The notes beneath the pieces are model-generated. The model searched no databases. It was not told where the DNA came from and was given only the letters and a program-made list of their open reading frames with translations. A program made the position numbers and the translations under genes. Positions 8,032 through 15,220 of a DNA stretch of 64,000 nucleotides are shown in pieces. Numbering within the stretch: position 1 is the stretch's first letter; the number at the start of each line of letters is the position of its first letter. Source of the DNA: Nitriliruptoraceae bacterium (lineage in GTDB: Bacteria; Actinomycetota; Nitriliruptoria; Nitriliruptorales; Nitriliruptoraceae). Location: NCBI GenBank assembly GCA_003561535.1, contig PWWI01000184.1, positions 1-64,000 on the forward strand, in the 5' to 3' direction.

Positions 8032-8697
8032 TCAGACGGAGGGTTGGGCGGCGGCCTCGATGCGGCGGCGCAGGCGCTGCAGCTGCACCACCTCCATCAC
8101 CAGGTGGCCCGTCTCCAGCAGGGGCAGCAGCGGCCGGACCCGACCGTCCCGGGCGCCCGTGCGGCAGCGCACGACCAACCGGGTGGCCACCGGCCCGTCG
8201 TCGCCGCCCGGCGGGGGGACGGCGTGGAGGGTGAAGGACCACACCCAGGCCAGCGGGCCGCTCGGCAGCACCAGCACCAGGGCCCGGGGGGCGTCGAGGT
8301 GGGCGACGACGAGGTAGGCGCGGTCGTTCAGCGCGACCCGGTCCCCCACCGCGAGGTCCTGCAGTTCCGGCACGACCCGGTCCGCGGAGCCACCGGTGAG
8401 GAAGTCACCGGCGCCGATCAACCGCTCGAGGGCGTCGATGGCGTACCAGCCGCCCCGCTGGTAGCCCATCTGCACCAGCCACGGCCACACCTGCGCGGGT
8501 GGGACGTCGATCCTGACCGCCCGGGTGGTGACCGCGGTGGCCTCGGGGTCGACCTCGTCACCCGGGAGCGCGGCGACCACCTCGGTGGGCAGGGCGCCGA
8601 GCGTGCGGCCCGCCCGCACGAGGCCGACCATCGCTGCCGCGGCGGCACCGATGCGCAGGAGCGACGAGCCGTTGCGCTGCTGTCGGTCGCCTGCCAC
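8032..8697 (-). CDS. SRPBCC-like protein of unknown function
   Basis: TRAVRIDVPPAQVWPWLVQMGYQRGGWYAIDALERL; likely GTG start 8697. Confidence 0.65.
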   Translation of the reverse strand: MAGDRQQRNGSSLLRIGAAAAAMVGLVRAGRTLGALPTEVVAALPGDEVDPEATAVTTRAVRIDVPPAQVWPWLVQMGYQRGGWYAIDALERLIGAGDFLTGGSADRVVPELQDLAVGDRVALNDRAYLVVAHLDAPRALVLVLPSGPLAWVWSFTLHAVPPPGGDDGPVATRLVVRCRTGARDGRVRPLLPLLETGHLVMEVVQLQRLRRRIEAAAQPSV

Positions 8698-8824
8698 CTC
8701 GGTGCTCCTCGGTCCGTCCGCCGGTCGCTGGTGCTCACCGCCCGCCCACGGCTCGCGCTCACCGCCCGCTGCCTGCCACGCTAGGCCATCGGTCCAGCGC
8801 CCGGCCGCGGACCGAAGGCCGAAC

Positions 8825-10123
8825 ATGGAGACCGCAGTACCCGACCGTCCAGGGACCCGGCTGGACCTGCCGACCGCCCGCGACGTCGCCGCCGCGGAGG
8901 CCTTCGTGCGTCGCCACCTCGGTGACCTCGTGGACGGCGAGGTGGTCGCCAGCCCCCGGTTCCGTGGCGGCCAGATGGCGGCGGATGCGGCGCTGGCCAC
9001 CCTGGACATCACCGGCTACGCCGCCGCCCGCAACGAGGTCTGGCCCCAGGAGCGCCGTGGCGCCAGCGCGGTCTCCCCCTACGTCCGGCACGGGCTGCTC
9101 CAGCTGCCGCTGCTGTGGGAGGCGGTCGCCGACGCCCCGGGCCGCGACCGGGCGAAGTACCGCGACGAGCTGCTCTGGCAGGAGTACGCCCGGCACCTCT
9201 ACGCCCGGGTGGGCACGGGGCTGGCTGAGGGGTTGCGCCACCGGCTCGTCGGCACCCCGACGCCCGGCGACGCCCACGATCGGGACCGTCAGCCCGGTGC
9301 CGGCGCGCCGAGCGTCTGGGACCCGGACATGGCCTGCCTGGCGACGACCGCCCGGGAGCTCGTGGAGGACGGCTACCTCGTCAACCAGACGCGGATGTGG
9401 CTGGCCTCGCACTGGGCCGTGAGGGAGGGCGCCGACTGGCGCGACGGTGAGGAGGTGTTCTTCCGCCACCTGCTCGACGGCTCGCGGGCTGCGAACCGGG
9501 CCGGCTGGCAGTGGACCGTGGGCACCGCGACCGGCCGGCCCTACGGCTTCTCCCGCTGGCAGGTCACCAAGCGGGCCCCGGGGCTGTGCGACACCTGCTC
9601 TCTGGCTGACGACTGCCCGATCGAGGACTGGCCCGAGGACCCGCCCCTGACCGCAGCCGACGAACCGCCGGGACTGCGCCGTGACCTCGACCCCGAGCGA
9701 ACCGGCGGTCCCTGCCGCCCGGAGGTCGCCGGCACGCCGGAGCTCGTGTGGGTGACCGCGGAGTCCCTCGGCGACGACGATCCGGCGCTGATGGCCCACC
9801 CCGACCTGCCCGCGGTTTTTGTGTTCGACGCGCCCCTGCTCGCACGGCTGCGGTTGTCGGGCAAGCGGCTGGTGTTCCTGACCGAGACCCTGGCCGACCT
9901 GGCCGAGCGGCGGGAGGTGCAGGTCCACCTCGGCGACCCCGTCGATGTGCTCGCCGGCCGGGCGCTGGCGACCACCTTCGCGCCCGTCCCGGGGTGGCGA
10001 CGCCGCTCGGCAGCGCTGAGCGTCGTCGCGCTGCATCCGTGGCCGTGGTTGCGTCGGCCCCACGGCCGGTCCGCGGCGTCGTTCAGCGCCTGGAGGAAGG
10101 CGGTCGAGCGCAGCGGCCGGTGA
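8825..10123 (+). CDS. Cryptochrome/photolyase-family flavoprotein with FAD-binding domain N-terminal and alpha/beta antenna-like domain C-terminal
   Basis: FAD domain: GASAVSPYVRHGLLQL...LLWQEYARHLYAR...WDPDMACLATTARELVEDGYLVNQTRMWLASHWAV...FFRHLLDGSRAANRAGWQWTVGTATGRPY; C-terminal: ELVWVTAESLGDDDPALMAHPDLPAVFVFDAPLLARLRLSGKRLVFLTETLADLAERREVQVHLGDPVDVL. Confidence 0.85.
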   Translation: METAVPDRPGTRLDLPTARDVAAAEAFVRRHLGDLVDGEVVASPRFRGGQMAADAALATLDITGYAAARNEVWPQERRGASAVSPYVRHGLLQLPLLWEAVADAPGRDRAKYRDELLWQEYARHLYARVGTGLAEGLRHRLVGTPTPGDAHDRDRQPGAGAPSVWDPDMACLATTARELVEDGYLVNQTRMWLASHWAVREGADWRDGEEVFFRHLLDGSRAANRAGWQWTVGTATGRPYGFSRWQVTKRAPGLCDTCSLADDCPIEDWPEDPPLTAADEPPGLRRDLDPERTGGPCRPEVAGTPELVWVTAESLGDDDPALMAHPDLPAVFVFDAPLLARLRLSGKRLVFLTETLADLAERREVQVHLGDPVDVLAGRALATTFAPVPGWRRRSAALSVVALHPWPWLRRPHGRSAASFSAWRKAVERSGR

Positions 10124-10335: not shown

Positions 10336-11361
10336 ATGCAGGGCAACACGACCTTCCGCCACCAGGGCACGGTGATCCTGTCCGTCGAGGCCGCCGACGC
10401 TCCCATCGTCGTCCCGTCCTCGCAGTTCGACGAGGCGCTGTCGGCGACCTACGAGCGTCTCGGCCTGCGCCCCGGGCTCCTCGAGGAGGTGGCCGGGGTC
10501 ATCGAGCGGCGCTGGTGGCCCGAGGACGTCAGCTACGCGGATGCGGCGGCCCTGGCCGGTGAGCGCGCGATCCAGGTGGCCGGCATCGACCGCTCCGAGA
10601 TCGGGCTGCTCATCGACACCTCGGTGTGCCGGTCCCACCTCGAGCCCTCGGCGGCCGTCGACGTGCACCGTCAGCTGTCCCTGGCGAGCTCGTGCCTGAA
10701 CTTCGACCTCGCCAACGCCTGCCTCGGGTTCGTCAACGCCATGCACCTCGCCGCCACGATGATCGACGGCGGGCAGATCCGCTACGCGCTGATCGTCGAC
10801 GGGGAGGGCTCTCGGGCGCTGCAGGAGGCGACGCTGGCCCGCCTCGCACGCCCGGAGACCACGGTCGCCGACGTGTTCGCCGAGTTCGCCTCCCTGACGC
10901 TGGGCTCGGGCGGGGCCGCGATGGTGCTGGGGCCGGCTGATGCCCACCCCGATGGGCACCGGCTGGTGGGCGGGGAGTCCCGCGCCGGGACCGAGTTCAA
11001 CGACCTGTGCGTCGGCTCGATCGACCACATGCGCACCGACACCAAGGCCCTGCTCGAGGCCGGGCTGCAGGTCGCGGATGCCACCTGGATCGCCGCCCGG
11101 GACAACGGCTGGGACTGGGGCACCGCCGACCACTACATCCTGCACCAGATCTCCTCGGTGCACACCCAGCTGATGTGCAAGCAGATCGGCATCGACCCCG
11201 AGCGGGCGCCCCTCACCTTCCCCCCCCGCGGCAACATCGGCCCGGCGTCGATCCCGACCACCCTGGCCCTGCACCAGGACCAGATCCGCCCCGGCGACAC
11301 CGTGGTCATCGGCGGCATCGGCTCGGGGATCAACACCCTGGGCAGCGAGATCCGGTGGTGA
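10336..11361 (+). CDS. oleA: OleA-type thiolase (head-to-head acyl condensation; FabH-like)
   Basis: SSCLNFDLANACLGFVNAMHLAA (active-site Cys), ILHQISSVHTQLMCKQIGI, IGGIGSGINTLGSEI; followed by oleBC and oleD homologs. Confidence 0.88.
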   Translation: MQGNTTFRHQGTVILSVEAADAPIVVPSSQFDEALSATYERLGLRPGLLEEVAGVIERRWWPEDVSYADAAALAGERAIQVAGIDRSEIGLLIDTSVCRSHLEPSAAVDVHRQLSLASSCLNFDLANACLGFVNAMHLAATMIDGGQIRYALIVDGEGSRALQEATLARLARPETTVADVFAEFASLTLGSGGAAMVLGPADAHPDGHRLVGGESRAGTEFNDLCVGSIDHMRTDTKALLEAGLQVADATWIAARDNGWDWGTADHYILHQISSVHTQLMCKQIGIDPERAPLTFPPRGNIGPASIPTTLALHQDQIRPGDTVVIGGIGSGINTLGSEIRW

Positions 11362-14216
11362 CGACCGCCACCCTGCCGCCCCCGGGCATCGTGGGGCTGG
11401 ACCCCGCCTGGTCCCGACTCGTGACCGCGGTGGACGCCGACGGCGTCGAGCGCACCTGGCACGTCCTGGACACCGAGGTGGCCGCGGGCGGCACCGTGCT
11501 CTGCGTCCACGGCAACCCGACCTGGTCCTACGCCTTCCGCGCGGTCCTGGCCACTCCCCCGGCCGGTTGGCGCGTGGTCGCCATCGACCACCTCGACATG
11601 GGCTACTCCGAGCGCACCGGCACCCACCGGCCGCTGGCGCGCCGGATCGACGACCTCGGCCGCCTGACCGCCGCGCTCGGCCTCACGGGCCCGGTGGTGC
11701 TGCTGGCCCACGACTGGGGCGGACCGATCGCGCTGGGGTGGGCGCTCGAACACCGCGACCACCTCGCCGGGGTGGTCCTGACCAACACCGCCGTGCACCA
11801 ACCCGAGGACGCCCCCGCACCGGGCCTGATCCGCAGCGCCCGGCTACCGGCGATGCTCGAGACCGTCACGGTGCGCACCCCCACCTTCCTGCGCGGCGCG
11901 ACCGCCCTGTCCCGCCCCCAGCTGCCCCCCGCCGTGCGCGACGCCTACGCCGCCCCCTACGCCAGCGCCGAGCGACGGGCGGCGATCGGCGGCTTCGTCC
12001 GTGACATCCCGCTCGAGCCCGACCACCCGAGCGCGGTCGTCCTCGACGGCATCGCGGACCGGCTGGGCGAACTGGCCGAGGTGCCGGCCCTGCTGCTGTG
12101 GGGCCCCAAGGACCCGGTGTTCTCCGACCGGTACCTGCACGACCTCGAGGCGCGGCTGCCCCAGGCGGACGTCCACCGTGTCGAGGGGGCGAGCCACCTC
12201 ACCCCCGAGGACGCCGACCTGGCCGAGGCGCTGCGCCGCTGGATCCCGGCCCGGGTGTCGACGGGACCCACCGCGGTGCCGACGGAGCCGGACGCGGTGC
12301 CGGCGGAACCGGACGCGGGGCCGGCGGAACCGGACGCGGTGCCGGCGGCTGCCGCCGACGAGCCGCGCACCCCACTGTGGGCCGCGCTGGCCGAGCCCCA
12401 CCGCGCCGACACCGACGCCATCGTCGAGCCCCCGGCACCCGGCGACGAGCTCCGCCGACCCCGCCGCTGGACCTTCCGCGAGCTGTCCGGCGACGTCCAC
12501 GCCCTGGCCGCCGGCCTCCACGCCCACGGGGTCCAGCCCGGTGACCGGGTGGCCTGCATGGTCACCCCCGGACGGGAGCTCGCCGTCCTGCTCTACGCCT
12601 GCTGGCGGCTCGGTGCCGTGGTGGTGGTGGCCGACGCCGGCCTCGGCCCCAAGGGGCTCAGCCGTGCGCTGCGCAGCGCCGCGCCGGGGTACCTCGTCGG
12701 CATCCCCCGGGCCCTGGCGGCGGCCACGGCCCTGCGCTGGCCCGGCCGCCGCATCGCCGCGGGGGACCCACCTGCCGCCCTGCGCCGCAGCGCGAACGTC
12801 GAGGTGACCCTCGACCAGTTGATCGCGCGCGGGTACCGCCTGATCGACCGCGGCCCGGGCCCCCTCGCCCACGGCCAGGAGCTGATCGCTGCCCGTCGCA
12901 GCCCCCGCGCCACCCACGAGCCCGACACCGTGCTGCCACCCCCACCGGCCGCCGACGCCGAGGCGGCGATCGCCTTCACCTCCGGCTCCACGGGGCCCGC
13001 CAAGGGGGTCGTCTACCGGCACCGCCAGCTCGAGGCGCAGCGCGACGCGCTCCGCCGGGCCTACGCGATCGGCGACGACGACCGGCTGGTGGCCGCCTTC
13101 GCGCCCTTCGCGCTCTACGGCCCGGCGCTCGGCATCACCTCGATGGTGCCCGACATGGACGTGACCGCACCGGCGTCGCTGACGGCCGCGGCGCTGGCCG
13201 ATGCGGTCGCCGCCACCGAGGCGACCCTGGTGTTCGCCTCCCCCGCCGCGCTGACCAACGTGGCCCGCACCGCCAACGAACTGCGCGGCGATCAGCGCAC
13301 CGCGCTCGCCGGGGTCCGCACCCTGATGTCGGCGGGCGCGCCGGTGCCCGCGGCGCTGCTCCGCCGGCTCGCCGCCGTGGTGCCGAACGCCGCGGCCCAC
13401 ACCCCCTACGGCATGACCGAGTGCCTCCCCGTGGCCGACATCGACCTCACCACCATCGAAGCGGTCGGTCCCGGCAACGGGGTCTGCGTCGGCCATCCCG
13501 TCCCCGGCGTCGAGGTGGCGATCAGCCCGCTGGACGCCAACGGTGCCGCGACCGGGCCGCTGGTCCGCGAGCCCGGGGTCACCGGCGAGGTCTGCGTAGC
13601 CGCGCCCCACGTCAAGGACCGCTACGACCGGCTGGCGATCACCGAGCTCACGAGCTCCCGCGACCCCGGCTGGCACCGCTCGGGGGACGTCGGCCACCTC
13701 GATGCGCACGGGCGGCTGTGGGTCGAGGGCCGGCTCGCGCACCTGATCACCAGCGCCGCAGGCCCGGTCACCCCGGTCGGGATCGAGCAACGCGTCGAGG
13801 CCATCGAGCACGTCGCGATGGCTGCAGCCGTCGGCGTCGGCCCCGCCGGCACCGAGCAGGTGGTCGTGGTCGTGGCGACCGACCCGGCCCCGGGCGCCCG
13901 GCAGCTGGCCCCGCTGACGCTGGTCGACCGCGTCCGCGCGGCGGTGCCGGAGGTCGACATCGCAGCGGTGCTGGTCGTGCCGGAGCTGCCGGTGGACATC
14001 CGCCACCAGTCCAAGATCGACCGGGCCCGCCTCAGCCGGGAGGCGGCCGAGATGCTCGCGGGCCGGGGGCTCGATCGCCGCCGGCGGCGCGGCGAGGCAT
14101 CGGGCGCCGACGGCACCGGCGATGGCACCAGCGCCAGCGACGGCGACGGCACCAGCGCCAGCGACGGCGATGGCGTCAGCGTCAGCGACGGCGACGGCGA
14201 CGGGGGTGGGTCGTGA
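11358..14216 (+). CDS. oleBC: Fused OleB (alpha/beta hydrolase, beta-lactone decarboxylase-like) - OleC (AMP-dependent ligase, beta-lactone synthetase-like)
   Basis: N-term: VLCVHGNPTWSYAFRAVL...VVLLAHDWGGPIALGWAL; C-term: AIAFTSGSTGPAKGVVYRH...TPYGMTECLPV...WHRSGDVGHLDAHGRLWVEGR; GTG start overlaps oleA stop. Confidence 0.88.
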   Translation: MTTATLPPPGIVGLDPAWSRLVTAVDADGVERTWHVLDTEVAAGGTVLCVHGNPTWSYAFRAVLATPPAGWRVVAIDHLDMGYSERTGTHRPLARRIDDLGRLTAALGLTGPVVLLAHDWGGPIALGWALEHRDHLAGVVLTNTAVHQPEDAPAPGLIRSARLPAMLETVTVRTPTFLRGATALSRPQLPPAVRDAYAAPYASAERRAAIGGFVRDIPLEPDHPSAVVLDGIADRLGELAEVPALLLWGPKDPVFSDRYLHDLEARLPQADVHRVEGASHLTPEDADLAEALRRWIPARVSTGPTAVPTEPDAVPAEPDAGPAEPDAVPAAAADEPRTPLWAALAEPHRADTDAIVEPPAPGDELRRPRRWTFRELSGDVHALAAGLHAHGVQPGDRVACMVTPGRELAVLLYACWRLGAVVVVADAGLGPKGLSRALRSAAPGYLVGIPRALAAATALRWPGRRIAAGDPPAALRRSANVEVTLDQLIARGYRLIDRGPGPLAHGQELIAARRSPRATHEPDTVLPPPPAADAEAAIAFTSGSTGPAKGVVYRHRQLEAQRDALRRAYAIGDDDRLVAAFAPFALYGPALGITSMVPDMDVTAPASLTAAALADAVAATEATLVFASPAALTNVARTANELRGDQRTALAGVRTLMSAGAPVPAALLRRLAAVVPNAAAHTPYGMTECLPVADIDLTTIEAVGPGNGVCVGHPVPGVEVAISPLDANGAATGPLVREPGVTGEVCVAAPHVKDRYDRLAITELTSSRDPGWHRSGDVGHLDAHGRLWVEGRLAHLITSAAGPVTPVGIEQRVEAIEHVAMAAAVGVGPAGTEQVVVVVATDPAPGARQLAPLTLVDRVRAAVPEVDIAAVLVVPELPVDIRHQSKIDRARLSREAAEMLAGRGLDRRRRRGEASGADGTGDGTSASDGDGTSASDGDGVSVSDGDGDGGGS
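12273..12347. repeat. 21-bp in-frame tandem repeat (AVPTEPD/AVPAEPD/AGPAEPD) in OleB-OleC linker
   Basis: Three consecutive 21-bp units plus a partial fourth. Confidence 0.9.
14118..14207. repeat. 24-bp in-frame tandem repeat encoding a GDGTSASD-type C-terminal tail of OleBC
   Basis: GGCGA(T/C)GGCACCAGCGCCAGCGAC units, three plus a partial. Confidence 0.9.
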
Positions 14217-15220
14217 AGGTGCTCGTGACCGGCGCCAGCGGCCTGCTCGGCCGCGGCACCGCGTTGGCGCTCGCGTCCCGCGGGAACGAGGTCACCGTGC
14301 TGCAGCGGCGCCCGTCGGGGTTGGCCGGCACCGAGGCCGGGGCGGGCCCGCCGATCCGCGAGGTGCTCGGTGACATCGCCGACGCCGAGGTGGTGCGGCG
14401 GGCGATGACCGGACAGGACGGCGTGGTCCACCTCGCCGCCCGGGTCGGGGTGGTGGGCACGGAGGAGGAGTTCCACCGCGCGAACGTGGACGGCACCCTG
14501 CAGGTCGTCGCCGCCGCCCGCGCGCTGCACGTGCCCCGGCTGGTCCACGTGTCGACCCCGTCGGTGGCCCACGCCGGCGAGCCCCTGGTCGGCGCCGGGG
14601 CGGACCCGGCCGACACCGTCCACACGATCGGCCACTACGCGCGCTCCAAGGCCCGCGCCGAGCAGCTCGCCCTCGGCGCCGCCGACGCGCTCGGCGTGGT
14701 CGCGATCCGCCCGCACCTGGTGTGGGGGCCGGGTGACCCCCAGCTGGTCGGCAGGATCGTCGAGCGGGCCCGGGCCGGCCGCCTGGCGCTGATCGACGAC
14801 GGCGCGGCCCTGATCGACACGACCTACATCGACAACGCCGTCGACGCGCTCGTCGCCGCCCTCGACCACGCCGAGGACGACGCCGTGCGGGGACGGGCCT
14901 TCGTGATCTCCAACGGCCAGCCCCGAACGGTCGCCGAGCTGCTCGCCCGGATCTGCCGCGCGGCGGGGTTGCCGGCACCCCACCGACGCGTTCCCCTTCC
15001 TGTCGCCTACGCGGGCGGGGCCGCCGCCGAGCGCCTGTGGGCCCGCCTGGGCCGCACCGACGACCCGCCGATGACCTCCTTCCTCGCGGAGCAGCTGGCC
15101 ACGGCCCACTGGTTCGATCAGCGCGAGGTCCGCACCGCGCTGCACTGGGAGCCGCGCGTCGGACTCGAGGAGGGCTTCGAGCGGCTGGCCGCGTGGTTCG
15201 CCGCCGGTGCGCACGCCTGA
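14213..15220 (+). CDS. oleD: OleD-like NAD(P)-dependent epimerase/dehydrogenase (3-beta-HSD type)
   Basis: VKVLVTGASGLLGRGTALAL, YARSKARAEQLAL (YxxxK), RPHLVWGPGDPQLVGRIVERA; GTG start overlaps oleBC TGA. Confidence 0.85.
   Translation: MKVLVTGASGLLGRGTALALASRGNEVTVLQRRPSGLAGTEAGAGPPIREVLGDIADAEVVRRAMTGQDGVVHLAARVGVVGTEEEFHRANVDGTLQVVAAARALHVPRLVHVSTPSVAHAGEPLVGAGADPADTVHTIGHYARSKARAEQLALGAADALGVVAIRPHLVWGPGDPQLVGRIVERARAGRLALIDDGAALIDTTYIDNAVDALVAALDHAEDDAVRGRAFVISNGQPRTVAELLARICRAAGLPAPHRRVPLPVAYAGGAAAERLWARLGRTDDPPMTSFLAEQLATAHWFDQREVRTALHWEPRVGLEEGFERLAAWFAAGAHA

Follow-up and report, generated by a model that had tools for sequence, protein, structure and literature searches.

A reverse-order photolyase-family gene with four conserved FeS-BCP-type cysteines in Nitriliruptoraceae and other Actinomycetota

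The gene and its surroundings

The window analyzed here is a 64,000-nucleotide stretch of DNA from a Nitriliruptoraceae bacterium. An open reading frame on its forward strand (8825-10123; ATG at 8825, stop at 10121-10123) encodes a photolyase-family protein of 432 amino acids. These coordinates, and peptides quoted from the frame, had been given by a sequence-only reading, and both are present. The protein was compared with its homologues in two alignments, A1 (25 full-length homologues, end to end) and A2 (97 homologues). The features of the gene are as follows.

8825..10123, + strand: whole gene, reverse-order (circularly permuted) photolyase, 432 aa; full-length AlphaFold2 model confident (pLDDT 94.3, pTM 0.92)
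8915..9544, + strand: FAD-binding helical domain, residues ~31-240 (canonical ~193-400); Pfam, NCBIfam, hhalign, HMM
9335..9337, + strand: C171, candidate Fe-S ligand, equivalent to the first FeS-BCP cysteine (PhrB C350); invariant in 108/108; alignments
9383..9397, + strand: N187-Q-T-R-M191, CPD-type lesion-site residues (E. coli N341, M345); alignments, PhrB mutants (PMC4619345)
9587..9616, + strand: C255-x2-C258-x5-C264, the other three candidate Fe-S ligands; invariant in 108/108; FeS-BCP alignments
9632..9721, + strand: linker from the FAD/Fe-S domain to the antenna domain, residues ~270-299; variable region in A1
9722..10120, + strand: C-terminal alpha/beta antenna domain, class I-like, residues ~300-432; BLASTP, hhalign, HMM, AlphaFold2/Foldseek

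Acyl-CoA dehydrogenase genes and an antisense ORF lie upstream of the gene and an Ole-like cluster lies downstream. A conserved repair operon was considered and is absent, as the neighbors are not repair genes. The antisense ORF (8035-8760, - strand) has no Pfam match and visibly resembles an ORF beside the photolyase gene of locus L103, which belongs to a cluster of nine loci. By its Pfam domains, the downstream cluster (10336-15217, + strand) resembles an olefin biosynthesis cluster of OleA, a fused OleB-OleC with alpha/beta hydrolase and AMP-binding domains in one ORF, and an OleD-like protein.

The window contains no DUF2256 gene. Among the 72 homologous loci with at least 1.2 kb of upstream sequence, a DUF2256-DUF3253 gene is found nearby in 22. 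In 18 loci (L120:5672-6031 and 17 others) it is the immediate upstream neighbor and shares the strand of the photolyase gene; at the junction of its stop with the photolyase start, the two genes overlap by 4 bases in 8 of the 17 loci measured. Its product is a possible partner of the reverse-order photolyase. A FeS-BCP gene is near the reverse-order gene in 5 loci. In L058, L060, L065, L067, L076, L077, and L081, a gene for an amine-oxidase/renalase-like flavoprotein precedes the photolyase gene by 370-460 bases in the same orientation.

Reversed domain order

Three kinds of models place the FAD-binding domain first in the protein, as the sequence-only reading had proposed. The Pfam model FAD_binding_7 aligns with residues 176-236 (E 1.5e-10), NCBIfam photolyase models cover residues 31-237, and a class I FAD-domain HMM matches 108/109 homologues near residues 38-218. 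The Pfam scan found PF03441 in all 97 homologues. In phmmer, residues 62-234 pair with positions 224-395 in class I photolyases. The FAD part aligns with the class I FAD domain in hhalign (E 1.5e-26), and the top PDB match of the domain is to class I photolyases (E 3e-23).

The C-terminal third lies outside all curated models and called for further tests. Its 132 amino acids searched alone matched zero Pfam or NCBIfam models, and a C-terminal profile searched against the PDB with hmmsearch reached only E ~1, with chains of Drosophila (6-4) photolyase and cryptochrome. Pfam scans of the 97 homologues listed no antenna match, which would be expected if the C-terminus were an unrelated Rossmann-like domain and the protein a truncated photolyase. 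That reading is highly improbable, however, because profile, HMM, and fold comparisons indicate a photolyase antenna. In BLASTP, the C-terminus pairs with N-terminal sequence from canonical photolyases (best E 5e-6), and the C-terminal alignment matches the class I antenna alignment in hhalign (probability 95.6, E 1.3e-8). A class I antenna HMM matched 95 of 109 homologues with a median start at residue 301 (5-95% range 284-325) and matched 0/545 shuffled C-termini that served as a control. An AlphaFold2 model of the C-terminus alone has a pLDDT of 89. Its best Foldseek matches are mostly antenna domains of cryptochromes and photolyases, including class II photolyases (probability up to 1.00, TMq 0.5-0.6); E-values are modest (best 5e-3) and unrelated folds are interspersed among the best matches. 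The C-terminal part is a photolyase antenna domain that lies below the reach of the Pfam antenna model. A FeS-BCP origin of this domain was also considered and is unsupported (hhalign probability 3.5). Thus, the earlier suggestion that the last ~130 residues read like an antenna holds by BLASTP, hhalign, the class I antenna HMM, and AlphaFold2/Foldseek. Of the separate HMM alignments that were proposed for the two parts, the one for the FAD part succeeded with Pfam, while the one for the C-terminus failed with Pfam and NCBIfam and succeeded with the class I antenna HMM.

BLASTP shows the order of the two domains directly, as many canonical photolyases from the same phylum give two crossing matches. 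The canonical N-termini match query residues ~300-376, and canonical residues ~200-400 match query residues ~31-240. In genome G043, the crossing pattern lies inside a single open frame. The cut point is the interdomain linker: the FAD part begins at about canonical residue 193 and can be aligned to about 400, and it is followed by a Cys-rich segment, the linker, and then the antenna domain.

The sequence-only reading had named a separate in-frame N-terminal domain upstream as the observation that would speak against a swapped order. The in-frame open sequence 5' of the ATG overlaps the antisense ORF 8035-8760, and the class I antenna HMM finds no antenna domain in it, which rules out a concealed upstream copy. 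The only antenna match that begins before a protein start is in L023, a contig fragment that holds the C-terminus alone. The swap within one ORF is borne out by crossing BLASTP matches, hhalign, HMM, and Foldseek, and the survey of homologues recovers it through the 95 antenna matches near residue 301. A FAD-first, antenna-last order, opposite to that of canonical photolyases, is therefore confirmed at the level of sequence. The window protein lacks the N-terminal antenna domain that marks class I CPD photolyases.

Iron-sulfur cysteines and relatives

The most informative feature of the protein was overlooked by the sequence-only reading. C171, C255, C258, and C264 show no variation across the 108 sequences spanning these positions. 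In an unconstrained hhalign comparison with FeS-BCP photolyases all four fall on FeS-BCP cysteines (E 8e-10), and a MAFFT multiple alignment matches them to the cysteines of 19/19 FeS-BCP. Because four invariant cysteines align with the FeS-BCP ligands, they likely bind a [4Fe-4S] cluster.

Cyanobacterial and proteobacterial photolyases closely similar to this one are already on record, a point not known to the sequence-only reading. In marine Synechococcus/Cyanobium, Phr4/Phr5 and Phr6 have an N-terminal FAD domain and a C-terminal photolyase domain (Haney et al., mBio 2022, PMC9426592). The cysteines of RS9916 Phr4 (C169, C254, C257, and C263) have nearly the same spacing as those of the window protein (PMC9426592), and the likeness of Phr6 rests on its published description (PMC9426592). 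These proteins are cyanobacterial and are encoded by two ORFs in most strains, whereas the window protein is a single ORF from Actinomycetota. NewPHL/Phr7 (Emmerich et al., 2020, NAR) also has an inverted domain topology according to the accounts in PMC13274461 and PMC9426592. In these accounts, it shares the N-x-x-R-M lesion motif with the window protein and differs by lacking the Fe-S Cys triad and by a divergent C-terminal Z-domain. The FAD domain of the window protein is related (hhalign E 7e-27) to those of L153-L155, which were taken as putative NewPHLs from their annotation, length, and sequence features. FeS-BCP (6-4) photolyases such as PhrB and CryB (PF04244) carry the four Fe-S cysteines at equal places of a FAD domain that is just distantly related. 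Unlike the window protein, they have the canonical order, a PF04244 N-terminal domain, and His/Leu lesion-site residues. Class I CPD photolyases (E. coli, A. nidulans) have the same antenna type and CPD-pocket residues, but their order is canonical and the Fe-S cysteines are absent. Outside the phylum, a likeness is seen on Deinococcus plasmids (WP_151845379.1 and WP_124875266.1), whose proteins are FAD-first with the four cysteines and match over nearly full length (hhalign E 3e-41, 370 columns), yet are just ~33% identical to the window protein. The sequence-only reading had guessed that relatives would be labeled "FAD-binding domain-containing protein," and this is correct for the Deinococcus proteins.

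Full-length homologues are present in 20 of 297 sampled Actinomycetota genomes. One genome scan gave 431 relatives, from which 80 loci with full-length homologues were retrieved. In the named scan, a Nitriliruptoraceae MAG supplies the nearest relative (85%). Two of 141 genomes in the phylum of G336, a genome with a locus titled Myxococcota, have full-length homologues as well. The MAG contigs of L074, L076, and L077, which carry the gene, are titled Bifidobacterium breve; in the tree, L076 falls with a Microthrix MAG, so the label looks wrong. Carriage by phages was considered and set aside, as phage records give just partial matches to the FAD part, and a scan of IMG/VR found no viral carriage.

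A FAD-domain tree of 65 rows unites the actinobacterial proteins (100/98). A wider cluster that takes in the Deinococcus proteins and the putative NewPHLs stands beside class I with moderate support (88/80). FeS-BCP are far from the permuted proteins in this tree, where long branches call for caution. AU tests did not reject a clade of permuted and Deinococcus proteins (p 0.37), nor a grouping of these with FeS-BCP (p 0.43); hence, the origin of the Fe-S site is compatible with both. FeS-BCP genes are found in 18 of the 20 carrier genomes vs. 19 of 277 other genomes (Fisher p 1e-16, ignoring relatedness), and class I photolyases likewise co-occur with the reverse-order photolyase in carriers.

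Within the incomplete literature covered, no paper on the actinobacterial branch was found. What the present sequences appear to add is this large branch, often coupled to DUF2256-DUF3253, and a lesion pocket that would argue for CPD over (6-4) repair.

Lesion pocket and putative function

By alignment, E. coli E274, W277, N341, and M345 correspond to E115, W118, N187, and M191 of the window protein, and W359, D372, N378, W382, and W384 correspond to W205, D218, N224, W228, and W230. E115, W118, and N187 are invariant among homologues (97/97 for both E115 and N187), and M191 is found in 89/97. Residues N187, E115, and M191 agree with most class I and all NewPHL-like rows, and FeS-BCP rows carry H, Q, and L at these positions. 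In our reading, N187 would be equivalent to PhrB H366 and M191 to PhrB L370, at a site adjoined by a one-column gap in the hhalign alignment with FeS-BCP. In PhrB, H366N abolishes repair and L370M lowers (6-4) repair (PMC4619345).

These residues bear on whether the protein is a (6-4) photolyase whose Fe-S cluster marks its specificity. Haney et al. suggested (6-4) repair for Phr4/5 and Phr6 from the Fe-S cysteines, and from a phr4 mutant that is sensitive to UV-C and not to UV-B (PMC9426592); the four FeS-BCP-type cysteines of the window protein speak for the same function. Against this, the catalytic His of FeS-BCP is Asn in 97/97 homologues, the very change that inactivates PhrB, and a second (6-4) enzyme would appear redundant because nearly all carriers already have a FeS-BCP. 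We regard a (6-4) function as quite unlikely.

The protein also departs from class I. The FAD-site aspartate E. coli D374 is Ser220 in 97/97 homologues. In the Trp chain of class I (W306, W359, and W382), the counterparts W205 and W228 are invariant, and a clear equivalent of the outer Trp, W306, was not seen in what is a variable loop. Photoreduction or FAD binding may thus differ from class I. These departures, together with the DUF2256-DUF3253 gene set closely upstream in many genomes and with the two other photolyases usual in carrier genomes, would suit a cryptochrome-like protein that senses light or redox state and does not repair DNA, perhaps partnered with the DUF2256-DUF3253 protein. 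Against this, E115, W118, and N187, which bind the CPD, are invariant, and a sensor has no obvious need of them; we consider this role rather unlikely.

The protein is probably a cryptochrome/photolyase-family flavoprotein that was permuted at the interdomain linker, with an FeS-BCP-type four-Cys site at the end of its FAD domain and a putative CPD-type photorepair function. We infer that it would bind a cluster, FAD, and an antenna chromophore. As a CPD photolyase, its C-terminal antenna chromophore would pass blue or near-UV energy to reduced FAD, which would donate an electron to the pyrimidine dimer, and the Fe-S cluster would stabilize the fold beside the lesion pocket. Given a CPD-type pocket (E115, W118, N187, and M191), repair of CPDs and not of (6-4) lesions would be expected, perhaps on DNA that is single-stranded or unwound, as with the related NewPHLs.

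With these sequences, a barely studied architecture known from picocyanobacteria now takes in much of Actinomycetota as well as Deinococcus, where the reverse-order protein is annotated only as FAD-binding. A CPD-type pocket combined with FeS-BCP-type cysteines makes two questions directly testable: whether the Fe-S cluster is tied to (6-4) specificity, and whether photolyases had the cluster ancestrally. We propose only tentatively, and with the odds somewhat against it, that proteins of the permuted Fe-S branch are CPD-type photolyases carrying a (6-4)-type iron-sulfur cluster. If true, the cluster would be uncoupled from (6-4) specificity, which would suggest that it predates the known photolyase classes and disappeared from class I and NewPHL.
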